Assembly: GCA_002430125.1 (NCBI GenBank)
Contig: DJBQ01000087.1
Coordinates: forward strand, 2,503 to 15,721
Origin: Rhodobacterales bacterium UBA5972
GTDB taxonomy: Bacteria; Pseudomonadota; Alphaproteobacteria; Rhodobacterales; Rhodobacteraceae
Length of the DNA: 13,219 nucleotides
Direction: 5' to 3'
Both the position numbers and the translations under genes were made by a program. Below the pieces are notes generated by a model that worked only from the letters and a program-made list of their open reading frames with translations, was not told the origin of the DNA and ran no database searches. Positions 1 through 13,219 of the stretch are shown here, piece after piece. Each line of letters opens with the position of its first letter. The first letter of the stretch is position 1.

Positions 1-1072
1 CCCCGCCATTTTTTCCCCACCAGTCAGGATCGTTGTAAACGATCTTGTCGATGTTCTTGGCCGAGGTGATGGCATAGTCCTGCTGATCTTCAGGGATTTC
101 GCCAAAGGCTGCCGGGTTGGACGGCGTCATCCCAAGGCACTCGAGCAAGGCAAGTTGTGCAGGCACTTCTTGCGCGGTTGCGATGAACTGCATTACTGCG
201 GCACCCGCCGGATTTCCCTTGGGCACAATATAAGCACCAGGCATCGCCATGGCCTGATTGTTCACCAGCTTGTAACGACCGTTGGTGTCATTCTCAATGT
301 TGCGGCCCCGGTTTTGCCAGATCATGCCCATGGTGACTTCGCCATTCACGCACATCGAATGCGCTTCTGAACCAGAGCCCCAATAAAGGCTGCTGTCTTT
401 GATCGATTTGATCTTGGCCAGCGCGCGGTCCATGTCGAGAGGATACAGCGCATCGCCCGCCACACCGTCCGCCATCAGCGCCGCCTCAAGTGAACCGTTG
501 GCCCATTTGTAAAGCGAACGCATGCCAGGGAAATTGGTGGTATCGAAGAAATCAGCCCAGTTTTCTGGTGGGTTATCGCCGAAGGCTTCGGTGTCATAGA
601 CAAAGGCATAGCCATAAAGAATGACCGACACACCATATTCAAGCGCATAGCCGGGCAGAGTTTTGTCTTTGGAGACAACCGAATAATCGATCGGCTCCAG
701 GTGCCCGGTTGGCCCAAGCGAAACCGCATTGAAAAGGTCGGCATCGGCCACGTCGGCGGTGACATTGCCGCTTTCGACCATCTCTTTGATCTTGCCTTCC
801 AATGGACCCGAGGTGTCGAACTTTAGCCCTTTGCCGGTCGAAGCTGTGAACGCATCGCCAATTGCAGAGCCGTGGCATTCCTCGGATTGGCCGCCCCAGT
901 TCCACATAACCACGTGGTCTGCTGCAGCTTTGGCGTCGCCTGCCATGACGGCGTTCAGTGCCACGCCCGAAGCACCACAAAGTGCCAGGAACGTTCGGCG
1001 GTCCATGCGACCTGCTTTATAAGCATGCGCACTTTCAGTGAGCATCTCTTTCATGAACTGTTTGTCTTGCAT
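1..1072 (-). CDS. ABC transporter substrate-binding protein, PotD/PotF-like, Tat-exported (3' part off window)
   Basis: This is probably the periplasmic binding protein of an ABC importer for a polyamine-like or quaternary-amine solute. About 357 codons are visible and the reading frame is still open at the left edge, so the C-terminus is missing. The start at 1072 follows an AGGAGG ribosome-binding site about 9 nt upstream. The N-terminus has a 22-residue leader, then a twin-arginine motif (DRRTFLALCG, residues 24-33), a hydrophobic stretch and an Ala-rich cleavage region near AKAAA. The mature protein opens with VVMWNWGG, as PotD/PotF-like proteins typically do, and carries the family-like segments NWADFFD and GMIWQNRGR. 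It lies 78 nt downstream of the ATPase gene on the same strand, so it belongs to that operon; permease genes presumably follow off the left edge. The solute cannot be read from sequence, but the BKACE upstream suggests a carbon source that feeds the neighbouring enzymes. Confidence 0.88.
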   Translation of the reverse strand, partial: MQDKQFMKEMLTESAHAYKAGRMDRRTFLALCGASGVALNAVMAGDAKAAADHVVMWNWGGQSEECHGSAIGDAFTASTGKGLKFDTSGPLEGKIKEMVESGNVTADVADADLFNAVSLGPTGHLEPIDYSVVSKDKTLPGYALEYGVSVILYGYAFVYDTEAFGDNPPENWADFFDTTNFPGMRSLYKWANGSLEAALMADGVAGDALYPLDMDRALAKIKSIKDSSLYWGSGSEAHSMCVNGEVTMGMIWQNRGRNIENDTNGRYKLVNNQAMAMPGAYIVPKGNPAGAAVMQFIATAQEVPAQLALLECLGMTPSNPAAFGEIPEDQQDYAITSAKNIDKIVYNDPDWWGKNGG

Positions 1073-1150: not shown

Positions 1151-2152
1151 CTACGTGTCGTGCAATTCGACGGCAGCATCTTCCTGCCAAAGCAGATCGA
1201 CTTCAGCACCCTCGGTCAGCGCCTCTTGATTGCGCCAAACGTCAATATCGACCTCAATCTCCTCCCCCTGGATAGAGTCGACGATGATCCGCTTCATTGA
1301 GCCGAAATAGGTGATAGAGCGAATGGTGCCGCTGATGCGGGCATCGCTCCCACCTTGCGCCAATCGCAGGTCAATCTTTTCAGGCCGCAGGGCGTAGGTC
1401 TTGTCGCCTTGTGTGATGAAATTTGATTTACCCAGAAAGCTGGCCGCAAACTTGGTCGCGGGGCGTTCGTATAATTCAACCGGTGTGCCGACCTGTTCGA
1501 TCGCCCCGTCGCGCATGATCACGATCCGGTCGGACATCGACAGCGCTTCTTCTTGATCATGGGTGACATAAATGAATGTCGTGCCGACACGGCGATGGAT
1601 GTCTTTGAGTTGCTCCTGAACCTCGACCCGCAGTTTCTTGTCTAACGCCCCAAGCGGTTCATCCAGCAGCAATACGGGCGGTGCAAAACACAAGGCACGC
1701 GCTAAGGCGACCCGTTGCTGCTGTCCCCCTGACAATTGGGTAGGCTTGCGATCTGCGAATTCCTGCAATTGCACCAGGTCCAACATCTCATCCACGCGGG
1801 CCTTGATCTCGGATGCCGGGCGCTTTCGCACGCTCAGCGCATAGCCAATATTGTCGCGCACCGACATATGTGGGAACAGAGCATAGCCCTGAAACACCAT
1901 ACCGAAATTGCGTTTTTCCGCGGGCACATCAGCAATGGAGGCACCATCCAGCGCGATGTCGCCTTGGGTGATATCCAAAAATCCCGCGATCATCATCAGC
2001 AACGTTGTCTTACCCGAGCCTGAGGGGCCAAGTAGCGTCAGAAATTCGCCCTTTTCAATATCGAGTGTGACGCCGTCCACTGCGCGGAACGGCCCGAACA
2101 TTTTCGAAACGTCACGGATTTGCAAACTGCCGGTACTGGCAAGATCAGCCAT
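1151..2152 (-). CDS. ABC transporter ATP-binding protein, PotA/spermidine-putrescine-type
   Basis: This is the cytoplasmic ATPase that would power the importer served by the binding protein downstream. All nucleotide-binding motifs are present in the 333-residue product: Walker A GPSGSGKT (42-49), Q-loop Gln88, signature LSGGQ (140-144), Walker B LLLDEP (161-166) and H-loop His198. A C-terminal region of about 90 residues fits the TOBE domain of the PotA/MalK/FbpC group. I chose the start at 2152 (MADLASTG) over the longer frame back to 2209. The longer form would add 19 residues that overlap the end of the BKACE gene, while 2152 gives a short 8-nt overlap with the BKACE stop, typical of translational coupling. 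The closest relatives are probably PotA-like ATPases for polyamines or other cationic solutes. The motifs give strong support for an importer ATPase, but the transported solute remains unknown. Confidence 0.93.
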
Positions 2153-3035
2153 TTGCGCCCCGCAAACCCAGTTTGTTGCGCGCTTCCTGCGGTGTGATGA
2201 TCCGAGCACCCATCCGTTCGATAATCTCGCGCGCCCGCGTCACCAACTGACCGTTGGTCGCCAGAACGCCGCGATCGAGATAAATGTTGTCCTCCAAACC
2301 GACCCGCACGTTACCACCCAAGGCGACAGCGGCCGCCATCATTGGCATCTGGCCCCGGCTGATCCCGAAGCTGGCCCAGCTTGCACCGGACGGCAGTTGC
2401 GCCTTCATGGCCGCCATCGTCTCAACAGTTTGATCAGCGCCCCATGGGATACCAAGGCACAACTGAAACATCGGCGGCGCGTTGATCAGACCTTCTTCAA
2501 CCATTGCCTTGGCAAAGCGGATATGGCCCAGATCGAACACTTCCAACTCCGGCTTCACACCCCATTCCTGCACCATCGCCGCCATTTTGCGCAGGCTGGG
2601 CGGGGTCGAGATGTAGATCATGTCGGTGTCGGAAAAATTCAGCGTGCCGCAGTCAAGCGAGCAAATTTCCGGCATACATTCTTTGACATGCGCCAGCCGT
2701 TCTTCGGGGCCGATCATATCGGTTCCGGGACCTGGCATTGCTGGATTATCAGCATCTGAAATCCAATCGCCGCCCATACCAGCGGTGATATTGATCACAA
2801 TATCAGTTTCGCTGTCGCGGATCCTGTCGACGATTTCCTTGAACAGTTTAGGATCGCGAGACCCCTGCCCTGTTTCAGGGTCACGCGCATGGATATGCGC
2901 GATAGAGGCCCCCGCTTTTGCCGCTTCAATCGCGGCATCCGCAACCTCCTTGGGCGTGACAGGCACGTGTGGGCTTTTGCCACTGGTATCTCCTGCTCCC
3001 GTAACCGCGCAGGTCAAGACAACTTCGTAATTCAT
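2145..3035 (-). CDS. BKACE beta-keto acid cleavage enzyme (DUF849), 3-dehydrocarnitine-cleavage-like
   Basis: BKACE enzymes condense a beta-keto acid with acetyl-CoA and split the product into acetoacetate and a new acyl-CoA. In carnitine catabolism the substrate is 3-dehydrocarnitine and the product is betainyl-CoA. The 296-residue protein is full length for the family. The zinc-binding motif HIHAR (His47, His49) and the later GLEDN motif (Glu248, Asp249) are intact, which argues for an active enzyme. The start at 3035 has a GGGGAG ribosome-binding site about 9 nt upstream. It is the first gene of the transporter operon and overlaps the ATPase gene by 8 nt. The carnitine-dehydrogenase-like gene at 4207-5157 could make its beta-keto substrate. 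Family assignment is firm. Dehydrocarnitine specificity is only inferred from context, because BKACEs accept several beta-keto acids. Confidence 0.9.
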
Positions 3036-3154: not shown

Positions 3155-4225
3155 GTGGAAATTGATATCTCGCCCAAAATGGCACCTGCGCAAATACACA
3201 CGGTCTTTATCGTTGTGCCAAGATTCAACATCACCACGTTGATCACGATGATCGAGGCGATGCGAATCGCGAACTATCTCGCGCCTGTGCCGATTTTCTC
3301 GTGGGAAATCGCCTCCTTTGATGGCACTAAAATCACCGCAAGCAACGGGATGACAACCACCGTTGAGGTCGCGGATGACACCCTGCGGTCCGCCGAATTC
3401 ACCTTTGTTCTAGGGAGTTGGGGGACTGAACATTATTCAAACAAACATCTGATCACGTGGCTGCGGAAACGTGCCCGTGCTGGCACCCGAATCTGTGGGG
3501 TCGAGTTGGGTTGCTACATCGTTGCCCGCGCCGGTTTGCTGGACGGCAAGCCTGCGACGATCCATTGGTCATGGCTGAACGGGTTCCGCGAGACGTTCGA
3601 CCGTGTCGACGTGCGCGAGGGGTTGTTTACGTTTGATGGCAAAGTGATGACCTGCGCGGGTGGATTGGCCGGTGTGGATCTGATGTTGCGCTTGATTGAG
3701 GAACTCCAGGGCAGCAGTTTTTCCGGCGAGATTGCCGACCAGATGCTACACCATCCGATCCGCAATGCCGCAACGCCGCAACGCAGCACTATGGGGCGCA
3801 GCACAGAAACGATGTTGCCGCTGGTGCGAGAAGCGATGACATTGATCGAAAACAACATCGAGGAACCGCTGAGAGTGCCTGAAATCGCGGGCCTGCTTGA
3901 CGTGTCGCAGCGCCAATTGGAGCGGCAGTTTAAAAAACATGTGGGGTGCACTATTGTGCAATTCGGGTTGCTCAGAAGGTTGCAAAATGCGCGGCTCTTG
4001 CTGATCTCAACCCAACTGAGCATCCGCCAGATCGCGACGGCTTCGGGTTTTAACAGTCTGTCGCATTTCGCCTATTCCTTCGGGAAATTCTTTGACCGCC
4101 GCCCGTCCGACTACCGTGAGGCTTGGCCAGAAAACGAACCGGCACCGAGCTGGCCCGGCTCGCTTTCAGATTTCCTCAACACGCTCAATGGCAAGCCAGA
4201 CAAAGCTCAGATGGACCGCGCCTGA
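3155..4225 (+). CDS. GlxA/CdhR-type AraC-family transcriptional regulator
   Basis: This is a two-domain regulator of the group that includes the carnitine regulator CdhR and the glycine betaine regulator GbdR. From the GTG at 3155, residues about 15-185 form a DJ-1/PfpI-like sensing domain, with the characteristic ARAGLLDG...TIHW segment. Residues about 222-325 form the AraC DNA-binding domain with two helix-turn-helix units, around VPEIAGLLDVSQRQLERQF and IRQIATASGFNSLSHFAY. The start is uncertain. GTG 3155 has a GGAAAG ribosome-binding site about 9 nt upstream, while ATG 3179 has no clear site but gives a family-like N-terminus; the frame also extends back to 3062. The gene is divergent from the BKACE operon and convergent with the dehydrogenase gene, overlapping its coding end by 19 bp. 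It is probably the inducer-responsive activator of the surrounding operons. The ligand is unknown. Confidence 0.88.
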   Translation: MEIDISPKMAPAQIHTVFIVVPRFNITTLITMIEAMRIANYLAPVPIFSWEIASFDGTKITASNGMTTTVEVADDTLRSAEFTFVLGSWGTEHYSNKHLITWLRKRARAGTRICGVELGCYIVARAGLLDGKPATIHWSWLNGFRETFDRVDVREGLFTFDGKVMTCAGGLAGVDLMLRLIEELQGSSFSGEIADQMLHHPIRNAATPQRSTMGRSTETMLPLVREAMTLIENNIEEPLRVPEIAGLLDVSQRQLERQFKKHVGCTIVQFGLLRRLQNARLLLISTQLSIRQIATASGFNSLSHFAYSFGKFFDRRPSDYREAWPENEPAPSWPGSLSDFLNTLNGKPDKAQMDRA

Positions 4226-5157
4226 CGCAATGCATTCAGCACAGCGACTATTTCGCGGTCGCGTTGGGCTGCCATGTCCTCAAAGTGGCGATCCCCCGCC
4301 ACGGCGTTGCAGCCGTCAACCATGCGGTCGCGCAGTTCTTTGGTAAGCTCAGGCGCTTCCAGACGGGTCCAAGGCAATTTCAACGCTGGCCCAAACTGAT
4401 CCAGATTGGTCGCCATGCCGCCCGCTCCGCAGGCGACATGAAATGCCATGCACTGCCCTTGGCTTACCATGCGCGGAGCCGGGCCGTTCATCAGCGCAAT
4501 ATCGATATCTTCCGGCGTCGCCTCGCCATTCGCGACCATGTGCAAGGCCTCGCGCCATAGCGCTTCTTGCAGCCGGGTTGCAACAAAACCAGGGATTTCC
4601 TTTTTCATCATCAATGGCGCTTTGCCAGCGATCTTGTAGAACTCCCCCGCCCATACGACCGCCTCGGGTGCGGTTTTCTTGCCGCCGACTATCTCGACCA
4701 GCGGCAACAGGTAAGGCGGGTTAAACGGGTGTCCGATGACCGTGCGCTCAGGTGTCGGGCAATCAGCCTGAATGTCGCTCATCATCAGACCCGAGGTTGA
4801 GGATCCAATTACAACGGAAGGCGACAGAATTGCACCCATTCTGGCATAGAGCGCTTGTTTGATATCCAACCGCTCTGGCCCGCTTTCCTGCACAAACTCC
4901 GCTCCAGCAAGTGCATCTTCGAGGTCCGTGGAAATTCGCAACCGGTCCAATGATGCGCCTGGCGCAAGTCCTAGATCAGTCAAACTGATCCACGCCGTTT
5001 TCAGGATCGACATGAATGCGTCTGTTTCAGAGGCGGCATGCAGATAGGCCGTGACGTCATAGCCACGGGCAAGGAAATGCGCGGTCCATCCGGCACCGAT
5101 CGGTCCGGCACCAATACTGGTTACGCGGGTGATGCTCTCAGGATTTGGATACATCAT
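4207..5157 (-). CDS. L-carnitine dehydrogenase-like NAD-dependent beta-hydroxy acid dehydrogenase
   Basis: This enzyme would oxidise a beta-hydroxy acid to its beta-keto acid with NAD+; in the carnitine pathway, L-carnitine to 3-dehydrocarnitine. The 316-residue length matches carnitine dehydrogenases. Visible features are the Rossmann motif GAGPIG (16-21), STSG (120-123), HPFNPPYLLPLVEIVGG (143-159) with the His143/Glu155 pair 12 residues apart as in 3-hydroxyacyl-CoA dehydrogenases, and QFGPALKLPWT (254-264), which is typical of the carnitine clade. The segment NGPAPRMVSQG (224-234) lies where I recall an aromatic, substrate-contacting stretch in Pseudomonas CdhA, so the substrate may differ. 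The start at 5157 overlaps the hydratase stop as ATGA; a second ATG at 5154 has better spacing to AAAGG. It is the last gene of its operon. Its product would feed BKACE. Confidence 0.85.
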   Translation of the reverse strand: MMYPNPESITRVTSIGAGPIGAGWTAHFLARGYDVTAYLHAASETDAFMSILKTAWISLTDLGLAPGASLDRLRISTDLEDALAGAEFVQESGPERLDIKQALYARMGAILSPSVVIGSSTSGLMMSDIQADCPTPERTVIGHPFNPPYLLPLVEIVGGKKTAPEAVVWAGEFYKIAGKAPLMMKKEIPGFVATRLQEALWREALHMVANGEATPEDIDIALMNGPAPRMVSQGQCMAFHVACGAGGMATNLDQFGPALKLPWTRLEAPELTKELRDRMVDGCNAVAGDRHFEDMAAQRDREIVAVLNALRQARSI

Positions 5158-5957
5158 TCACCTTTGAAATTTGGTTCACGTTTCTCGACAAAAGCAGCAA
5201 CGCCTTCTTTGGCATCCTCGGATTTCAGCATCTTGCGGTAGGTCGGCATCGGATCGGTGCGCATTTTGTGAAAGGCCTGTTCCAGTGGGATACACTCGAT
5301 TTCACGCTGCACTTCCTTGACGGTCTGCATCGCCAGCGGTGCGGACCACGCGATTGACGCCGCCCATTCCCTTGCTGCATCCATCAGTTGATCCCTGGGC
5401 ACGACTTTGTTGACAAGACCGTAATGCGCCGCCTCGGTGGCAGACATCCGGCGGCCGAGCAGAAACATCTCCATCGCGATGTTATGGGGAATGCGGCGTG
5501 GCAGGCGTTGCAATGCGCCCGCGTCAGGTACAATTCCCAAGGGCATTTCGGGTAGACCAAATTCCACATGATCAGCCGCGATCAGCAGATCACAGGCCAT
5601 CGCCATCTCGAACCCGCCGCCAATCGCCAGCCCGTTGATCGCGGCAATCACCGGTTTGTTCAACGCCCAGTTTTCGGTGAGGCCAGTAAACCCGCCGAAG
5701 CCGTATTCATCTGCCTCCCACCAATTGTCTAGGCTCATCTCGCCATCATTCAGCGCCTTGAGATCCCAGCCCGCCGAGAAAATTTTGTCGCCGCCACCCG
5801 TCAGAATGGCGCAGCGCAAATCCTTGTCTTCGTGCAGTTCCTGAAACGCAGCGGCCAATGCTTGCGACGTCGGGACATCGATGGCATTCACTTTACCCCG
5901 CGCAAGCGTTACCTCAAGCACATGGCCGTCACGATGGGTCGTTACACCTGCCGACAT
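5154..5957 (-). CDS. Enoyl-CoA hydratase/isomerase, CaiD (carnitinyl-CoA dehydratase)-like
   Basis: This is a crotonase-fold enzyme that adds water to, or removes it from, an acyl-CoA. In E. coli, CaiD interconverts crotonobetainyl-CoA and carnitinyl-CoA. The 267-residue protein has the oxyanion-hole segments FSAGWDLKA (60-68) and GGGFE (113-117). Both glutamates expected for hydratase chemistry are present, Glu117 and Glu137 (in LPEMPLGIVPDAG). The FSAGWDLKA, GFGGFTGLTE and LGIVPDAG segments closely resemble CaiD as I remember it. An AAGGAG site 8 nt upstream supports the start at 5957, which overlaps the monooxygenase stop by one base (TGATG). The downstream dehydrogenase start overlaps this gene's stop as ATGA, so three consecutive products are probably made in fixed ratio. 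Crotonase fold and activity class are secure; carnitinyl-type specificity is inferred. Confidence 0.9.
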   Translation of the reverse strand: MSAGVTTHRDGHVLEVTLARGKVNAIDVPTSQALAAAFQELHEDKDLRCAILTGGGDKIFSAGWDLKALNDGEMSLDNWWEADEYGFGGFTGLTENWALNKPVIAAINGLAIGGGFEMAMACDLLIAADHVEFGLPEMPLGIVPDAGALQRLPRRIPHNIAMEMFLLGRRMSATEAAHYGLVNKVVPRDQLMDAAREWAASIAWSAPLAMQTVKEVQREIECIPLEQAFHKMRTDPMPTYRKMLKSEDAKEGVAAFVEKREPNFKGE

Positions 5958-7000
5958 CAGCGCGTCTCCTTAAATTCTGGCATGACTTCTTTGCAGAACA
6001 TACGCAAGGATCGTTGCTGGGATTCGTGGCTGAGGCCCATGGAAGCGTAGTAGATGAACTCGTTCACCCCCAAAGCCTGATATTTATTCAACTTTTGAAT
6101 GACAGTATCGGGGGGGCCGAACATCAGGTTTTCTTCGAGCATCGCAGGGTCAAATTGTTCGCGGCCTTCCAACTGATCCAAAGGCTGGGCGGAAGGGAAA
6201 CCGTTGACCACATCGCCAGAGTTGCGGAACAGGTTTTCGAACTGGCTCAGCAATCTGCGGATCGCATTCAACGCCTCTTGCCGGTCTGCGTCATTGTCGT
6301 AAAGGCAGGCGTGACGCATCAATGCAAATCGCGGATTCCAGCCATTTTCAGCCTTCACGATCGCCTCATTCAGTTGCTGCATATAGAGTTCAGCTTCGGC
6401 GAAGGGACGGGTCAACGGCCAGCAGTTCACGTGGCATTTCTCACGCATCGCATAGTCGTATGTGATGGGCGAGCGGGCCGAAACCCAGACAGGCACCTCG
6501 GGTTGCACTGGCTTGGGAACCGAAGTGGAGGTCGGAAAGTTCCAGAACTCTCCGTCATGGGCATAATCGCCGCCCCAAAGCGCGCGCACAGCAGGCAGCA
6601 TTTCCTGCATATAGCGCCAGGCGTCCGACTGTTTCAGCCCCGGTCGCATCCGGTCAAATTCCCGCTGATAGGCACCCGATCCGATACCGAATTCCAGCCG
6701 TCCGCCGCTGATCAAATCGACAAACGCCGCCTCGCCCGCCAGATTGATCGGATGCCAATAGGCCGCTGTCGCCACTGCGGTGCCTAAACGTATGTTGCTG
6801 GTCTCTTTCGACCACCAGGTCAGCAGTTGAAACGGATTGGGCGCAATCGTCATCTCTAGTGCGTGGTGCTCAGCGGCCCAGACAATATCAAAACCGCCGT
6901 CTTCCGCGATCTGCACCATCTCAAGCGTGTGACGAGCGACGTCTTTCATGTCATAGCTGTCGTCGATCCGCTCCATGTTCACGGCCAGTTGGAATTTCAT
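5957..7000 (-). CDS. LLM-class (luciferase-like) flavin-dependent monooxygenase
   Basis: Proteins of this class use reduced FMN supplied by a separate flavin reductase, plus O2, to oxygenate a small molecule, often cleaving a C-N, C-S or ring bond. The 347-residue length is normal. Family features include AAEHH (42-46), YWHPINLAGEAAFVDLISG (81-99) and the flavin-phosphate region GRLEFGIGSGAYQREFDR (100-117), with LMFGPPDTVIQKL in the C-terminal part. The start at 7000 has an AAGGAG site with about 7 nt spacing. The gene begins 32 nt after the aldehyde dehydrogenase stop and overlaps the hydratase start by one base. The reductase domain fused to the CoA-transferase at 9853-11961 is the obvious partner. 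The substrate is not visible. It could be a free betaine or N-heterocycle, or a CoA thioester. Confidence 0.9.
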   Translation of the reverse strand: MKFQLAVNMERIDDSYDMKDVARHTLEMVQIAEDGGFDIVWAAEHHALEMTIAPNPFQLLTWWSKETSNIRLGTAVATAAYWHPINLAGEAAFVDLISGGRLEFGIGSGAYQREFDRMRPGLKQSDAWRYMQEMLPAVRALWGGDYAHDGEFWNFPTSTSVPKPVQPEVPVWVSARSPITYDYAMREKCHVNCWPLTRPFAEAELYMQQLNEAIVKAENGWNPRFALMRHACLYDNDADRQEALNAIRRLLSQFENLFRNSGDVVNGFPSAQPLDQLEGREQFDPAMLEENLMFGPPDTVIQKLNKYQALGVNEFIYYASMGLSHESQQRSLRMFCKEVMPEFKETR

Positions 7001-7032: not shown

Positions 7033-8514
7033 TCAACGCATCACAAACGGGTTCGAAATCGGCGCATCCGAAGTATTCACCCAGATCGTCTTGGGCCGTG
7101 TGTAATCATAGATCGCCTGAAAACCGCTTTCGCGACCATAGCCTGACCCTTTGACCCCACCAAACTCGGCGATGGGCGACACCACGCGATAGGTGTTCAC
7201 CCAGACAATGCCCGCTTGCACCGCATTCGCCATTCGCAATGATCGCGCAGAGTCTCGTGTGAAGATGCCCGCCGCCAGCCCGTGTTCGGAATCGTTGGCC
7301 AGTTCCAGCACCTCTTCTTCGGTTTTGAAACGCTGCACGGATAGGACAGGCCCGAACAATTCGGTGTCGACAATCCGCAAATCCTGACGCGGACATTCAA
7401 TAATTGTCGGCTCGTAAAACAAGCCACCCATGCCGTCAGGTTGCTTGCCCCCCGCAAGGATCGTGGCCCCTTGTTCTTGTGCATAGGCAACCTCGCGCTG
7501 GATGTTTTCCAACTGCCCGATGGTGCAGAGCGGCCCCATCTGCGTCTCATCCACAAGCGGATCACCGATCACGATCTGGCGGGTTAATGTCGTCATCCGT
7601 TCCAGAAACTTATCTGCAATATCTTCGTGGAGATAGAGCCGCGACCCTGCGACACAACTTTGCCCTGTTGCCCCAAAAATCCCTGCAATCGAGGCGTTGA
7701 CCGCGCTCTCGATGTTCGCGTCGTCAAACACGATGAAAGGCGATTTGCCGCCCAACTCCAGCGACACTTCGGCAAAGTTACGTTTGACGTTTTCCAGCAC
7801 ATGACGCGCAGCGTTAGGTCCGCCGGTAAACGACACCCGCGCGACCAAAGGATGACCGGTCAACGCACGCCCACAAGGCTCTCCGTGGCCCGTGACGATA
7901 TTTACGACGCCGGGCGGGATGCCCGCCTCTTCGATCAGCTTGCCAAATTCCAGCATCGCGGCACTTGCATGTTCGGATGCTTTTAACACCACGGTATTGC
8001 CTGCGGCCAAAGCTGGGCCCAGTTTGACGGCGACCAAGAACAACTGCGAATTCCACGGAACGACGGCGGCAACCACGCCCAGCGGTTCACGCTTGGTAAA
8101 GACAAACATGTCGGGCTTGTCGATCGGTAACGTCTCACCGCTGACCTTGTCCGCGCAGCCCGCAAAAAAGTGGAAGAACTCGGCTATGTATTTAGCCTGC
8201 CAGCGCGTTTCCTTTAACATTTTCCCTGTATCGACGGATTCAGTGCGGCCCAAATCTTCTGACTGCTCGGCCAGCAGATCACCTAGCTTACGCAAATGTT
8301 TGCCGCGATCAGTCGGAGTAAGTTTCGACCATGGCCCTTTGGTAAAGGCATGATGGGCCGCTTCTACAGCACGGTTAACATCGGCTTCCGTCGCTTCGGG
8401 GACGCGGCTCCAGATTTGACCGGTTGTGGGATTCACACTGTCGAATGTGCCGCCGTCAGATGCATCAACCCACCCCCCATCGATCAACATTTGATAGTTT
8501 TTGATATCGCCCAT
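7033..8514 (-). CDS. NAD(P)-dependent aldehyde dehydrogenase (betaine-aldehyde-dehydrogenase-like)
   Basis: This enzyme oxidises an aldehyde to a carboxylic acid. The 493-residue product carries the complete catalytic set: Asn155 (PWNSQ), Glu253 (LELGGKSP), Cys287 (GQSCVAGSR) and the EL FGPV cofactor motif near 385-390. Length and motifs fit the betaine/aminoaldehyde/hydroxymuconic-semialdehyde group. I chose the start at 8514 (MGDIKNYQ), which has a GGAGG site 9 nt upstream. The same frame runs back to 8787, but that extension crosses the divergent promoter region and the opposite-strand RidA gene and has no family similarity. It is the first gene of the operon continuing with the monooxygenase 32 nt downstream. 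A likely job is removing a semialdehyde made by oxygenative ring opening or C-N cleavage; the exact aldehyde is unknown. Confidence 0.92.
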   Translation of the reverse strand: MGDIKNYQMLIDGGWVDASDGGTFDSVNPTTGQIWSRVPEATEADVNRAVEAAHHAFTKGPWSKLTPTDRGKHLRKLGDLLAEQSEDLGRTESVDTGKMLKETRWQAKYIAEFFHFFAGCADKVSGETLPIDKPDMFVFTKREPLGVVAAVVPWNSQLFLVAVKLGPALAAGNTVVLKASEHASAAMLEFGKLIEEAGIPPGVVNIVTGHGEPCGRALTGHPLVARVSFTGGPNAARHVLENVKRNFAEVSLELGGKSPFIVFDDANIESAVNASIAGIFGATGQSCVAGSRLYLHEDIADKFLERMTTLTRQIVIGDPLVDETQMGPLCTIGQLENIQREVAYAQEQGATILAGGKQPDGMGGLFYEPTIIECPRQDLRIVDTELFGPVLSVQRFKTEEEVLELANDSEHGLAAGIFTRDSARSLRMANAVQAGIVWVNTYRVVSPIAEFGGVKGSGYGRESGFQAIYDYTRPKTIWVNTSDAPISNPFVMR

Positions 8515-8647: not shown

Positions 8648-8654
8648 CATGAGC

Positions 8655-9056
8655 ATGGTTCAGAAAAAGCAGATTCTTGGTGGTCCAATTGAAATCGGCG
8701 GACGTGTGTTGACGCTGTCCCGTGCGATCCGCGCTGGCGATTTTGTCTTTCTAACCGGTCAAATTCCGATGCGGAGCGGTGCGCCAATGACAGACGGCTC
8801 GATAGAGGATCAAACCCGTGCCGTGCTTGAGGACATCACAGAAACGCTGGCGTTGGCAGGCTGCACACGCGATGACGTGGTCAAAGCGATGGTCTGGCTG
8901 CGCGACCGCACCGACTTCCCCGGCTTTAACGAAATTTACGGTGAATACTTCCCGATTGAACCGCCGACACGGTCCGCTATTGTCAGCGATCTGCTGGTGG
9001 ACGCACGGGTCGAAGTTGAGGTTATGGCGTATAAGCCAATGGGGCGCGATACATAA
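8655..9056 (+). CDS. RidA/YjgF/RutC-family protein (enamine/imine deaminase-like)
   Basis: RidA proteins hydrolyse reactive enamines and imines to keto compounds and ammonia; RutC, in pyrimidine breakdown, belongs to the same superfamily. The 133-residue product is typical in length. It has GQIP (35-38), the active-site arginine in PPTRS (Arg106) and the C-terminal VEVEVMAY segment with acidic residues 120 and 122. These suggest a catalytically competent protein rather than an arginine-less relative. ATG 8655 is chosen because the GGGAGG site is 7 nt upstream of it; the ATG two codons earlier is too close. The stop overlaps the hydrolase start (TAATG). It is the first gene of this operon, and its role probably concerns an aminoacrylate- or enamine-like intermediate produced by the oxygenase step, by analogy with Rut. 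Confidence 0.9.
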   Translation: MVQKKQILGGPIEIGGRVLTLSRAIRAGDFVFLTGQIPMRSGAPMTDGSIEDQTRAVLEDITETLALAGCTRDDVVKAMVWLRDRTDFPGFNEIYGEYFPIEPPTRSAIVSDLLVDARVEVEVMAYKPMGRDT

Positions 9057-9856
9057 TGGCGCTGGCACCTGACGGCACGCATTTCGAATTAGTTGGTCCG
9101 GCAGATGCGCCGGTTGTTGTGCTGATCCACGGTCTGGGTCTGAACCTGGAATGCTGGCAATGGACGACCCCTGCGCTGACGGATTGCTACCGCGTTCTGA
9201 CCTACAACCTTTATGGGCATGGCGGCTCCAGCGCGCCGCCTGAAACGCCCAGTCTGTCGTTGTTTTCAAATCAATTGGCCAGCTTGCTCGATCACTGCGA
9301 CATCGATCGCGCTGTGATCGGCGGTTTCTCTTTGGGCGGCATGATTGCCCGTCGTTTTGCGCAGGATACACCCGACAGAGCGCAGGCTTTGATCATCCTT
9401 CATTCGCCTCACAAACGCAGTGATGCAGCCCAGACCGCCATCCACAAGCGGGTGGAACAGGCCCGCGAAATGGGGCCAAGTTCCACGGTCGAAGCTGCCC
9501 TTGAGCGGTGGTTTACTGATGCCTTTCGCGCCGCCAATCCCGAGGTAATGGAGCTTGTGCGTGGCTGGGTCACTGCCAACAAAAAGTCGATCTACCACAC
9601 GATTTATCGCGTTCTGGCAAGCGGCATTGACGAGATTGTAGCCCCTGACCCTGCAATTTCTTGCCCCGCTCTGGTCATCACCGGCGACGAAGACTACGGC
9701 AATGGCCCTGAAATGACCCAAGCCATCGCTGCCGAAATTCAAGGGGCAAGTGCAGTGGTCTTGAAAGATCTGCGCCATATGGCTTTGGCCGAAGACCCCG
9801 ATGCGGTGAACACGCCGATCCGGGCCTTTCTTGAGTCATTGAGCGGTGCACCGTGA
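9056..9856 (+). CDS. Alpha/beta-fold hydrolase
   Basis: This 266-residue single-domain hydrolase has a full catalytic triad: Ser92 in GGFSLGG, Asp213 in TGDEDYGNGP and His241 in LRHMALAED, with the oxyanion-hole motif HGLGL (25-29). It resembles RutD, TgnE-like and 3-oxoadipate enol-lactone-type hydrolases that follow ring-opening reactions. The start overlaps the RidA stop by one base and the stop overlaps the next start as GTGA, so it is translated with its neighbours. Possible jobs are hydrolysing a lactone, amide or carbamate after ring cleavage, or acting as the thioesterase otherwise missing from this carnitine-like gene set. Sequence alone cannot choose between these. No signal peptide is seen, so it is cytoplasmic. 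Confidence 0.9.
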   Translation: MALAPDGTHFELVGPADAPVVVLIHGLGLNLECWQWTTPALTDCYRVLTYNLYGHGGSSAPPETPSLSLFSNQLASLLDHCDIDRAVIGGFSLGGMIARRFAQDTPDRAQALIILHSPHKRSDAAQTAIHKRVEQAREMGPSSTVEAALERWFTDAFRAANPEVMELVRGWVTANKKSIYHTIYRVLASGIDEIVAPDPAISCPALVITGDEDYGNGPEMTQAIAAEIQGASAVVLKDLRHMALAEDPDAVNTPIRAFLESLSGAP

Positions 9857-11961
9857 GCACGCAAATCCTGAAAGGCCTGCGGGTATTGGACCTCAGCCGC
9901 ATGCTGTCGGGACCGTATTGCACAATGCATCTGGCCGATCACGGCGCGGAAGTGATCAAGATCGAGGGCGGCAGCGGTGACACCAGCCGTGGCAATGGGC
10001 CCTTCCGCGATGATGACCCAAGCCAAGACTGGGCCGGATATTTTGTCAGCCTGAACCGCGGCAAAAAGAGTGTCCGGCTCGATCTGAAGTCTGAAAGCGG
10101 CAAGGCCAGTTTCCGCAAACTCGCGGCGACTGCAGATGTGATCGTTGAGAACTTCCGCCCCGGTGTGATGGAACGTCTGGGCCTTGCCTACGAAACGTTA
10201 GCGACCGAAAATCCGAAACTGGTTTATGCGGCCATCCGTGGCTTTGGGGATCCGCGCACCGGGGCCAGCCCCTACAGCGATTGGCCGTCGTATGATGTCG
10301 TCGCTCAAGCCATGGGCGGATTGATGGCGATGACTGGTCCTGACATCGAAACACCAACCAAAACCGGCCCCGGAATAGGCGATATTTTTGCCGGCATGAT
10401 GATGGCATTTGGCATCATGGCAGCCCTGCGCGAGGCCGAGGCGACCGGCAAAGGTCAATTCGTTGATGTCGCTATGTATGACGCGATGATCTCGCTCTGT
10501 GAACGCATGGTCTACTTGCATGACATGACGGGTATCGTCGCCGCGCCAGAGGGCAACGGCCATCCTTTCCTGGCGCCCTTCGGGCTTTTCCCAGCTAAAG
10601 ATGGGCACATAGCACTTGGTATTGTGGATGATGCGTTTTGGCGCCGCTTGGCAGCGATTATGGATCAACCGGATTTGGGAAATGACACGCGCTATGCAAC
10701 CCGCGCGGCAAGGTCTGCAAATGCTGTTGAACTAAACGCGTTGGTAGCCCATTGGAGTCGCGTCCGCAGCAAAACTGAACTGACCACTCTTTTAGGCGGA
10801 GAGGTGCCTTTCGGACCAATGAACACGATCGCCGACATTGCAACAGATCCCCATGTCGCCGCACGTGGCATGCTGGCCAAAGTCGCCGCACCGGGCCAAG
10901 ACCCTTGGACGATTGCCGCCAATCCCTTGCGTTTTGGGGCGCATGGTCACGGCCCGCTGTCCGCCCCTCCGGCACTTGGTGCGGATGACAATTTGTTGGG
11001 CACCCTTGCGGCACCCAAAGAAATGGACCCAACTGCCAAACGGGCCCTTCGCAATGCCTTTGGCAGCTTTGCCACAGGTGTCACCGTTGTCACAACGCGC
11101 CAGCCAGACGGCACGCCGCGCGGGTTCACCGCCAATTCGTTTACCTCGGTCTCGCTTGATCCTCCATTGTTGTTGGTGTGTATCGCCAAGGCGGCACTGT
11201 CTTGCGATACCTTCGCGCAGGCAGATCATTTTGCGGTCAACATTCTGGCAGATGACCAAAAGGAAGTATCAGGCCTTTTTGCATCGCAATCAGTCGATAA
11301 GTTCGACCTCGCCAAATGGCATGTCGATGCGCAGAATATCCCGCTGATCGATGGAACATTGGCAAGTTTCAGTTGTACGCGACACCGACTTGTGGATGCC
11401 GGCGACCAACTGATCCTGATCGGCCGGGTGTTGGAATTTGAGACTTCCGAAGGCACACCCCTTGGATATTACAAAGGGGCCTATTTCGACATCGGGTTAG
11501 ACGAAGCATTGGCTGACGCCGCCGCATCCACGGGGCGTATTTCGTTGGGGGCTGTCTTGGAGTGTGAGGGCCAACTTTTGCTTTGCGAAGATGCCACTGG
11601 CCGGATATCAGTGCCCGCGGCTTCGGCGCGCGCAGGGACATCGATTGAGGGGCTGTCCAACTACTTGAAAGCGCTTGGCGTGATACCCGAGCTTGGCCAT
11701 CTTTACGCCGTCTACCAAAACACAAAAGATGGATCACAGCGCATCGTATATCACGGGGTTGTCGCGGGGGATGCACCTGCTGGAATGCGGTATTTCGATC
11801 TGAGTACCCTGCCCTATGATCGGGTTTATGACGAAGCTGAACGCTCATTGTTGCGCCGATACGTTCAAGAAAATCAATACGGTGCCTTTGGCATCTATCA
11901 CGGAACCGAGGTTGAAGGGGTGGTGCATGCCGTCACTGGACGCCGAAACTATCATATCTGA
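9853..11961 (+). CDS. Fusion protein: CaiB/BaiF CoA-transferase + flavin reductase + Nudix-like C-terminal region
   Basis: This is an unusual 702-residue multidomain enzyme. Residues 1 to about 388 are a full CaiB/BaiF class III CoA-transferase: opening LKGLRVLDLSRMLSGP, VENFRPGV and the catalytic aspartate Asp177 in TGPGIGD. Residues about 391-548 are a flavin reductase (FMN-binding split barrel): RNAFGSFATGVTVVTT, RGFTANSFTSVSLDPPLLLV and a late YYKGAYFDIG. Residues about 562-640 resemble a Nudix fold (LGAVLECEGQLLLCED, then LYAVYQ and RIVYHGVV) but lack the REXXEE catalytic box; a tail of about 60 residues follows. The start is a GTG overlapping the hydrolase stop (GTGA). No stop or frame change separates the domains; Met391 (ATG 11023) has no ribosome-binding site. 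The reductase domain probably supplies reduced flavin to the monooxygenase at 5957-7000, while the transferase activates a carboxylate as a CoA ester. Confidence 0.88.
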   Translation: MSTQILKGLRVLDLSRMLSGPYCTMHLADHGAEVIKIEGGSGDTSRGNGPFRDDDPSQDWAGYFVSLNRGKKSVRLDLKSESGKASFRKLAATADVIVENFRPGVMERLGLAYETLATENPKLVYAAIRGFGDPRTGASPYSDWPSYDVVAQAMGGLMAMTGPDIETPTKTGPGIGDIFAGMMMAFGIMAALREAEATGKGQFVDVAMYDAMISLCERMVYLHDMTGIVAAPEGNGHPFLAPFGLFPAKDGHIALGIVDDAFWRRLAAIMDQPDLGNDTRYATRAARSANAVELNALVAHWSRVRSKTELTTLLGGEVPFGPMNTIADIATDPHVAARGMLAKVAAPGQDPWTIAANPLRFGAHGHGPLSAPPALGADDNLLGTLAAPKEMDPTAKRALRNAFGSFATGVTVVTTRQPDGTPRGFTANSFTSVSLDPPLLLVCIAKAALSCDTFAQADHFAVNILADDQKEVSGLFASQSVDKFDLAKWHVDAQNIPLIDGTLASFSCTRHRLVDAGDQLILIGRVLEFETSEGTPLGYYKGAYFDIGLDEALADAAASTGRISLGAVLECEGQLLLCEDATGRISVPAASARAGTSIEGLSNYLKALGVIPELGHLYAVYQNTKDGSQRIVYHGVVAGDAPAGMRYFDLSTLPYDRVYDEAERSLLRRYVQENQYGAFGIYHGTEVEGVVHAVTGRRNYHI

Positions 11962-11974
11962 CAGGAGAATACAT

Positions 11975-12577
11975 ATGCTGCCCGAACTACGAAAAATAGT
12001 CACTTTCGACGAGGATATTCATACCGAAGGTGGCCGCGCCTCAGACCCTGTCTTGCGCATGATCGGGGTGGCCGCTGTGGTAACAAACCCATGGGCGGGT
12101 CGCGGATTTGTCGAAGACCTGTCTCCCGAGATCATCCGCATGGCGCCAGTGCTGGGGTCGATGTTAACCGACCGTCTGATTGCCCTGGCAGGATCAGGCG
12201 ACGCAATCGAGGCATATGGCAAGGCTTGCATCGCGGGAACCAGCTGTGAAGTCGAACACGCTTCAGCCCTCATCCACACTTTGCATTTCGGCAACTTCTA
12301 TCGCGAGGCAGTGGGCGCTAAAAGCTACTTGGGCTTCACAAATACCCGCGGCCCGGCAAACACCCAGATTCAAATCCCCTTGATGGACAAACACGATACC
12401 GGCCGGAGGTCCCACTACTTGACGGTGCAGTTTTCAATCTACGACGCACCTGCTGTTGACGAATTGGTTGTCGCATTGGGCGCTGCGACACGCGGGCGCC
12501 CCCATCACAGGATTGGAGATCGGTATTCGGATCTGGCAGCAATGGGCCACGAGGTCGACAATCCTGCGGGTGTATAG
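11975..12577 (+). CDS. PF06684 (DUF1185) 'amino acid synthesis' family protein
   Basis: The 200-residue product matches this small family in length and in segments such as RASDPVLRMIGVAAVVTNPW (21-40), CEVEHASALIHTLHFG (91-106) and RGRPHHRIGDRYSD (173-186). Crystal structures of family members from Bordetella and Silicibacter (Ruegeria) show a variant of the chorismate-mutase-like fold, and no reaction is established to my knowledge. The start at 11975 (MLPELRK) has an AGGAG site with 7-8 nt spacing; the frame reaches back to 11816, but that part overlaps the fusion gene. It lies 13 nt after the fusion gene and is the last member of the operon. Sharing an operon with RidA, a hydrolase and a flavin reductase suggests it acts on a small nitrogen-containing intermediate. 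It is probably an enzyme, of unknown reaction. Confidence 0.87.
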   Translation: MLPELRKIVTFDEDIHTEGGRASDPVLRMIGVAAVVTNPWAGRGFVEDLSPEIIRMAPVLGSMLTDRLIALAGSGDAIEAYGKACIAGTSCEVEHASALIHTLHFGNFYREAVGAKSYLGFTNTRGPANTQIQIPLMDKHDTGRRSHYLTVQFSIYDAPAVDELVVALGAATRGRPHHRIGDRYSDLAAMGHEVDNPAGV

Positions 12578-12903: not shown

Positions 12904-13219
12904 ATGAATACCATAAATTTCGTCCAAGCCGGCGGAACGATAGACAAAGATTATCTGACCGACGATAATAATCGCGCCTACAATTTTGTGATCGGTGATC
13001 CGGCATATCAATCGATCATACGGCGAGCCGAAATCCCTTATCCGGTCGGCTTCATTTCTGCCTGTCGAAAAGATAGTACGGATATGGACGATCAAGATCG
13101 CCAAGCGATTAGGCGCATCGCTTTGGAAGTTGCTGCGGACAAAGTGATTATCACCCATGGCACCGATACTTTGCATATTACGGCCAAGCATTTGGCCGGG
13201 CAGTGTCAGAGGAAACTAG
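12904..13219 (+). CDS. Asparaginase-like protein, N-terminal part (runs off right edge)
   Basis: One hundred and five codons are visible and the frame is still open at the window end. The N-terminus FVQAGGTIDKDY carries the asparaginase nucleophile threonine (Thr12 in GGTI), and ITHGTDTL (83-90) is the second active-site motif with Thr87/Asp88. Asparaginases hydrolyse L-asparagine to aspartate and ammonia. The short start without a signal peptide suggests a cytoplasmic form. It resembles, as I recall, the small single-domain asparaginase-like proteins of about 170 residues, but the missing 3' end prevents confirming length. The ribosome-binding site is weak (GGGAAA, about 7 nt upstream). Codon use is richer in A/T (many ATA, AAT and GAT codons) than in the operons to the left. 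That, with the 326-bp gap, suggests it is not part of the catabolic cluster. Confidence 0.8.
   Translation, partial: MNTINFVQAGGTIDKDYLTDDNNRAYNFVIGDPAYQSIIRRAEIPYPVGFISACRKDSTDMDDQDRQAIRRIALEVAADKVIITHGTDTLHITAKHLAGQCQRKL

Follow-up and report, generated by a model that had tools for sequence, protein, structure and literature searches.

The window analysed here is a stretch of 13,219 nucleotides from contig DJBQ01000087.1 of Rhodobacterales bacterium UBA5972 (family Rhodobacteraceae), and it encodes a protein in which a class III coenzyme A (CoA) transferase is joined in frame to a flavin reductase (9853..11961, plus strand). This fusion is real and conserved, and is no isolated accident. 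On balance we favour, with some reserve, the reading that this one polypeptide has two jobs in a single catabolic pathway, namely to supply flavin to the luciferase-like monooxygenase (LLM) of the same locus and to transfer CoA after that enzyme has helped to open a ring. The domains, the catalytic aspartate, the conservation, the synteny, the homology to trigonelline (tgn) genes, the sister group of the transferase and the co-occurrence of genes on which this reading draws were all computed.

The fusion occupies an open frame of 702 residues with zero internal stops, read from a GTG start that overlaps the stop codon of the upstream hydrolase gene. Its N-terminal part is a full-length class III domain: Pfam CoA_transf_3 (PF02515) matches residues 6-378 (9868..10986, plus strand) over profile positions 1-365 of 366 (E 2.1e-121), and the catalytic aspartate is residue 177, within PGIGDIFAG (codon 10381-10383, plus strand). 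This is followed by a flavin reductase domain of the TgnA type (residues ~396-547; 11038..11493, plus strand), within which Flavin_Reduct (PF01613) matches residues 403-547 over profile positions 1-152 of 153 (E 4.5e-39), again a complete domain. An earlier note on this DNA had described a complete CaiB/BaiF domain with Asp177 and a complete flavin reductase domain in one open frame, and the Pfam matches bear this out; it saw the transferase and the reductase and missed a third, C-terminal domain (residues ~550-702; 11500..11961, plus strand). The third domain was recognized through the protein structure PDB 3RH7, which aligns to fusion residues 396-697 in a single stretch and thus spans the reductase domain and an extra C-terminal domain of ~150 residues, and through a structure model. 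A first model, built from 17 sequences, was too weak for use (predicted local distance difference test, pLDDT, 63.5); a second, built from 111 sequences (pLDDT 79.4; predicted template modelling score, pTM, 0.61), was used for each domain by itself and not for domain placement. Amongst the best 50 fold matches of the second model 3RH7 took ranks 1-3, and all others were class III CoA-transferases, including the formyl-CoA, succinyl-CoA:glutarate and benzylsuccinate CoA-transferases. The source genome also holds a second flavin-reductase match (G000:C178:12145-12615), which is 43% identical to fusion residues 396-552 and has one internal stop.

Conservation of the fusion was studied with residues 385-702 as the query of a protein search, in which targets were limited to ~386-1228 aa and the best 7997 candidates were scored. 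At least 1486 matches were found at E <= 0.001. Amongst the best 120 of these, 116 carry both CoA_transf_3 and Flavin_Reduct, mostly in proteins of ~700 aa, so the architecture recurs across relatives, the point that the earlier note had wanted checked; the remaining four (P0071, P0101, P0107 and P0115) join an alpha/beta hydrolase to Flavin_Reduct. The window protein was aligned with 110 of the best 120 relatives (111 rows; the four hydrolase fusions, five short fusions and P0008 are absent), and Asp177 is present in 110 of the 111 aligned fusions, P0109 being the sole exception. Mean identity to the window protein is 78% in the transferase, 77% in the reductase domain, 52% in the C-terminal domain and 29% in the linker (379-394). 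A sequencing artefact or lost stop near 11000 is ruled out by relatives of equal length that align over their whole extent and by the presence of the fusion in named genomes; the stop or frameshift at 11000-11030 that the earlier note had allowed for is thereby excluded. Nor are the two domains always separate genes in homologous loci, the fusion being found in many relatives and separate genes or other fusions in some. The earlier note had not recognized the architecture as characterized and, indeed, no description of a CoA-transferase/flavin reductase fusion was found in the open-licence literature searched.

Across 394 genomes of the source organism's family, the reductase half was found in 71 (E <= 1e-45) and the transferase-reductase fusion in at least 13. 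The spread is patchy: when the whole protein was used for searching, the full-length fusion was found in 4 of 101 relatives, source genome counted, and in 0 of the 9 other genomes of the source genus. Named carriers include Parasedimentitalea marina (on a plasmid), Ruegeria denitrificans, Ruegeria sediminis, Pseudogemmobacter humi and Defluviimonas. Matches of any kind occur in 1302 plasmid records, one of which covers at least 80% of the fusion protein, and a single scan returned no viral relatives. In genome G427 the locus occurs twice (C26 = L122 and C42 = L121), each time with an intact fusion, and genome G329 likewise has two fusions. Four relatives (P0003, P0005, P0037 and P0080) are labelled ‘cag pathogenicity island protein Cag11’ in public records; no domain seen supports this name, which is probably a carried-over misannotation.

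Homology marks the window locus as tgn-like; its LLM belongs to another branch, and a CoA module has been added. The Acinetobacter sp. PK01 plasmid NZ_CP094644.1 carries the annotated genes tgnA (reductase), tgnB (LLM) and tgnC (dehydrogenase) of trigonelline breakdown, and homologues of all three are found together with the hydrolase homologue in the window. The reductase half is 40% identical to tgnA, the LLM (5957..7000, minus strand; PF00296) 38% to tgnB and the aldehyde dehydrogenase (ALDH; 7033..8514, minus strand, start assumed at 8514; PF00171) 53% to tgnC; the alpha/beta hydrolase recognized by Pfam (9056..9856, plus strand) is 29% identical to that of the tgn locus and the DUF1185 / AA_synth protein (11975..12577, plus strand, start assumed at ATG 11975; PF06684) 60%. 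Amongst the 13 window open reading frames (ORFs) scanned with Pfam, no other ORF was found to hold a second flavin reductase domain, and the LLM is therefore otherwise unpartnered in the window, as the earlier note had it. Tgn-type loci are common in the same family and in rhizobia; they consist of genes for a DUF1185 protein, hydrolase, reductase, LLM and ALDH, usually in that order, with a reductase that is stand-alone or hydrolase-fused; the ABC solute-binding protein of the window is 37% identical to its counterpart in the S. meliloti tgn-type locus. No CoA gene was found in the 17 kb of the Acinetobacter tgn locus seen. A succinate-semialdehyde dehydrogenase is present in L214 and L215; none was found among the 13 scanned window ORFs or annotated in the 28 kb of the Parasedimentitalea locus (L036). 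The tgn-type reductase of S. meliloti pSymA (L215:8069-9004) aligns with 3RH7 along the full 311 residues (681 bits), a likeness in sequence which suggests that 3RH7 is the reductase of a tgn-type pathway. According to one study, ring opening of trigonelline by TgnA/TgnB is the first step of the pathway, these enzymes are argued to be unlikely to act on homarine, and both trigonelline and homarine are measured metabolites in the ocean (PMC8269262).

The transferase half was compared with NCBIfam models and placed in a tree. Its best model is succinyl-CoA:mesaconate CoA-transferase (NF041294), at 411.7 bits under a cut-off of 700, and the next is succinate-glutarate (276 bits); against the L-carnitine CoA-transferase model it scores 121 bits, with a cut-off of 413. 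In the tree of transferase domains nine chosen fusions form one clade (99), which is joined at 94 to a sister group of five rows (Tistrella, G092, Pseudosulfitobacter, G061 and Cupriavidus), the G092 row being a near copy of Tistrella (99%). An acyl-CoA dehydrogenase gene adjoins the transferase in all five; MaoC and CoA ester lyase homologues are also found near all five, although weak and not adjacent in Cupriavidus, and MmgE/PrpD near four. We take these operons to be devoted to C5-dicarboxylate degradation. An intermediate of the trigonelline pathway, 2-((N-methylformamido)methylene)succinate, belongs among the substituted methylenesuccinates and so fits a sister group of the C5-dicarboxylate type; its name also occurs among the source names in the search for fusion relatives.

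Between the regulator and the LLM gene, and beyond the regulator, lie the genes of the CoA module: an enoyl-CoA hydratase of the carnitinyl-CoA dehydratase kind (5154..5957; PF00378), a 3-hydroxyacyl dehydrogenase of the L-carnitine dehydrogenase kind (4207..5157; PF02737 and PF00725), both assigned below cut-off, and a beta-keto acid cleavage enzyme (BKACE; 2145..3035; PF05853; PDB 3c6c), all on the minus strand. The module was scored as present when at least two of the three were found. Counted over the 58 loci whose sequence reaches 2.8 kb or more past the dehydrogenase gene, kinship among loci being uncorrected, it is present in 39 of the 40 with an intact transferase vs 7 of the 18 without (Fisher p 1.4e-6); when L152 (transferase split over two frames) and L165 (fusion truncated by the contig end) are reclassified the figures become 40/42 vs 6/16 (p 7.9e-6). 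The intact-transferase loci with no module nearby (L138 and L165) have an LLM and a dehydrogenase close together elsewhere in the genome. Within the family sample the dehydrogenase orthologue (E <= 1e-100) occurs in 17 of the 394 genomes, and all 17 also hold an LLM orthologue, on which ground an independent carnitine module next to an unrelated oxygenase operon was rejected. The earlier note had asked whether the fusion co-occurs with an LLM gene: an LLM orthologue is found in cis in 40 of 42 intact-fusion loci, the exceptions being L138, where it lies elsewhere in the genome, and L142, where the contig ends before it. Orthologous loci of Aminobacter, Sulfitobacter and Tabrizicola retain the LLM beside a stand-alone reductase and have no transferase, and other orthologous loci retain it with a transferase that lacks the catalytic segment or with a hydrolase-fused reductase. 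The reductase is a more constant partner of the LLM than the transferase is, though not an invariable one.

Four layouts of the reductase family were found: stand-alone, hydrolase-fused, fused to an intact transferase, and fused to a transferase without its catalytic segment. In degenerate fusions of ~500 aa (P0177, P0212 and P0166) part of the transferase is retained, the segment with the catalytic Asp is missing and much of the C-terminal lobe is gone, and loci L118, L177 and L180 have a shortened N-terminal part from which the same segment is absent. Hydrolase-reductase fusions (L212:7137-8936, L074, L076, L114, L120, L185, L186, L188-L190, L192, L197, L201 and L204) occur both in a tgn-type clan and in the window's clan. 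At the other end of the protein, the fusion stops after the reductase domain in L109, L160 and L161, where no C-terminal domain was detected, and in L157 that domain is present in another frame. A tree of reductase halves was built from 77 rows, which include close relatives of the window protein and not the window itself (L159 was dropped and L165 had no usable frame). All 42 intact transferase fusions fall in one clan with interspersed losses, separate from the 12-row tgn-type clan (99% by the SH-like approximate likelihood ratio test, SH-aLRT), and parsimony requires at least 10 label changes, at least five of them forced by well-supported branches. The simplest history to fit the sequences would be a single fusion, after which the transferase was lost repeatedly; exchange between lineages may be an alternative. 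A permissive search of the 1.5 kb upstream of transferase-less reductases at 16 loci found no transferase remnants (best E 0.36). Replacement of the fused transferase by a stand-alone orthologue is unsupported, only paralogues of up to 42% (E <= 1e-60) being found in G190, G287, G103 and G272.

From these data we infer both enzyme activities, the substrate and the order of the steps. The C-terminal half would be a TgnA-type NAD(P)H:flavin reductase that reduces flavin with NAD(P)H, the reduced flavin being passed to the TgnB-like LLM of the same locus. By analogy with the trigonelline enzymes, the LLM, ALDH and hydrolase probably open the ring of an N-heteroaromatic betaine, with the ALDH and hydrolase predicted to yield an acid after ring opening by the LLM. 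The N-terminal transferase, related to the succinyl-CoA:mesaconate enzyme, would most likely move CoA onto or off this acid, and the transfer would feed the hydratase, dehydrogenase and BKACE. Fusion may mainly set co-expression and stoichiometry, and channelling between the two halves is not implied.

A number of observations weigh against this two-job reading. The score below the NF041294 cut-off of 700 bits means that the CoA acceptor is not fixed, and the association of transferase and CoA module takes no account of the relatedness of the loci. The module occurs without an intact fused transferase in six loci (L114, L118, L172, L210, L227 and L235), and those of their genomes that were searched (G190, G287 and G272) hold only the transferase paralogues of at most 42%; in the genome of L177, whose transferase is degenerate, the dehydrogenase lies on a separate contig, so there is no strict transferase-module rule. 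An acyl-CoA synthetase of the locus type (51-74%) was found in 19 of 22 genomes searched, both with and without the transferase, and loss of the transferase may be tolerated because this synthetase is present; the source genome, which is incomplete, has a synthetase match at 44% only. On the reductase side, L227 (G220), L231 (G239) and L234 (G428) consist of LLM, dehydrogenase, hydrolase and DUF1185 genes with no reductase between them, and no match to the reductase half was found in these genomes at E <= 1e-45; the reductase is therefore not indispensable in cis. Reductases of the clan also occur with no LLM in the stretch seen (L168-L171, L117, L124 and L126); the genomes of L168, L170 and L171 have an LLM orthologue (80%) on another contig, and that of L169 has a match of 38% only.

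Other explanations were weighed against the same evidence. The earlier note proposed that the transferase loads CoA on the acid substrate or direct product of the LLM, such that activation and oxygenation are coupled, which would agree with the joining of the two domains and with the LLM in cis at nearly all intact-fusion loci. LLM orthologues remain in loci of unchanged gene order that have no intact transferase, which makes a CoA thioester less likely as the oxygenated substrate, and the transferase tracks the hydratase, dehydrogenase and BKACE instead; the same reductase family is also fused to a hydrolase, and the Acinetobacter tgn locus has no CoA gene in the part seen. We regard this coupling as unlikely. 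In the homologous trigonelline pathway no prior CoA activation is possible, as ring opening comes first there (PMC8269262).

The fused transferase might instead be a CoA shuttle in a carnitine-like route, moving CoA from the 3-hydroxyacyl-CoA made by the hydratase to the next substrate molecule, with the freed hydroxy acid going to the carnitine-dehydrogenase-like enzyme and BKACE. In favour of the shuttle, the substrates of carnitine dehydrogenases are free acids; the intact fusion belongs to one conserved module that also contains the synthetase, acyl-CoA dehydrogenase, hydratase, dehydrogenase and BKACE, and the hydratase and dehydrogenase score best against the models of carnitinyl-CoA hydratase and L-carnitine dehydrogenase. 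These scores all lie below the NCBIfam cut-offs (hydratase 295/500, dehydrogenase 309/414 and transferase 121/413 bits), the transferase branches with enzymes of the dicarboxylate type, and the module exists without the transferase, leaving the shuttle a doubtful candidate. Finally, the transferase could be a dispensable passenger, a chance fusion of lost importance that is under deletion, as the degenerate and missing copies inside the clan and the hardly conserved linker might suggest. We think this quite improbable: the transferase is conserved like the reductase domain (and the C-terminal domain less so), Asp177 is retained in all but one of the aligned fusions, and presence of the transferase follows that of the CoA module.

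The remaining window genes and their order also recur elsewhere. Starting from the left edge, the window contains an ABC solute-binding protein gene cut by that edge (2..1072, minus strand; PF13416), an ABC transporter ATPase gene (1151..2152, minus strand, start assumed at 2152; PF00005), a gene for an AraC/GlxA-family regulator (3179..4225, plus strand, start assumed at ATG 3179; Pfam HTH_18 and DJ-1_PfpI) and one for a RidA-family protein (8649..9056, plus strand, start assumed at ATG 8649; PF01042). The gene order of the window is shared with the Parasedimentitalea and Aminobacter loci, in both of which the minus-strand run extends into permeases, acyl-CoA dehydrogenase and acyl-CoA synthetase; in the Aminobacter locus the reductase has a gene of its own, and the hydrolase and DUF1185 genes have no transferase gene between them. 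Downstream of the locus is an asparaginase-like gene cut by the window edge (12904-13218), and in Parasedimentitalea, too, an asparaginase-domain gene lies downstream of the locus, together with one for an aspartate ammonia-lyase (L036:17157-19085).

Loci of a third kind (15 retrieved: L217-L226, L228-L230, L232 and L233) are composed of ALDH, LLM and hydrolase genes, with a DUF1185 gene in most. Their LLM belongs to the window's branch (59-68% identity to the window LLM), and none of the 15 has a CoA module. A weak match to a small reductase was found in seven of them, Pfam-confirmed in two (185 and 223 aa), and a LysR regulator is present in both of those whose neighbours were scanned (L226 and L228). 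Loci of this kind are candidates for a related betaine pathway. For homarine, a hom operon of five genes is reportedly described in a 2026 Nat Microbiol paper, and homarine as a substrate stays a lead.

The usual description of a two-component oxygenase is of a free oxygenase with a free reductase. Here, ordinary enzyme types are found in an unusual join as part of a tgn-like pathway, in an architecture that is undescribed as far as the literature searches reach. Depending on the lineage, one reductase family is fused to one or another enzyme of its own locus, a hydrolase or a CoA-transferase, and the natural series of separate, hydrolase-fused, transferase-fused and decaying-transferase forms can be used to probe the purpose of such fusions. 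The locus points to an uncharacterized catabolic route, probably for a betaine-like compound, in ocean bacteria, and it also suggests a pathway for 3RH7, which was released in 2011 as the structure of a putative oxidoreductase. We suggest tentatively that marine Rhodobacterales possess a pathway new to the literature, in which TgnAB-like ring opening of an N-heteroaromatic betaine is followed by a carnitine-type CoA route and the fused protein physically joins both halves. If true, that CoA route would comprise synthetase, acyl-CoA dehydrogenase, hydratase, dehydrogenase and BKACE acting on a nitrogen-bearing or dicarboxylic product.

Amongst known systems, the transferase half is most like the class III succinyl-CoA:mesaconate and related dicarboxylate CoA-transferases, from which it differs in its score below the cut-off of the best model, in being fused and in its gene neighbourhood. 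The stand-alone homologue in Tistrella is 58% identical to it and has acyl-CoA dehydrogenase, MaoC and CoA ester lyase genes as neighbours. The structure 3RH7 (SMa0793 of Sinorhizobium meliloti) is the same two-domain reductase without the CoA-transferase domain, and the hydrolase-reductase fusions, such as that on Mesorhizobium ciceri pMESCI01, likewise join this reductase family to an enzyme of their own locus, but the partner is an alpha/beta hydrolase and no CoA-transferase. The tgn locus of Acinetobacter sp. PK01 shares with the window homologous reductase, LLM, aldehyde dehydrogenase, hydrolase and DUF1185 proteins; the window lacks a second (succinate-semialdehyde) dehydrogenase, its LLM is of another branch (38%), its reductase is fused to a CoA-transferase, and it adds RidA, hydratase, dehydrogenase, BKACE and an AraC regulator.

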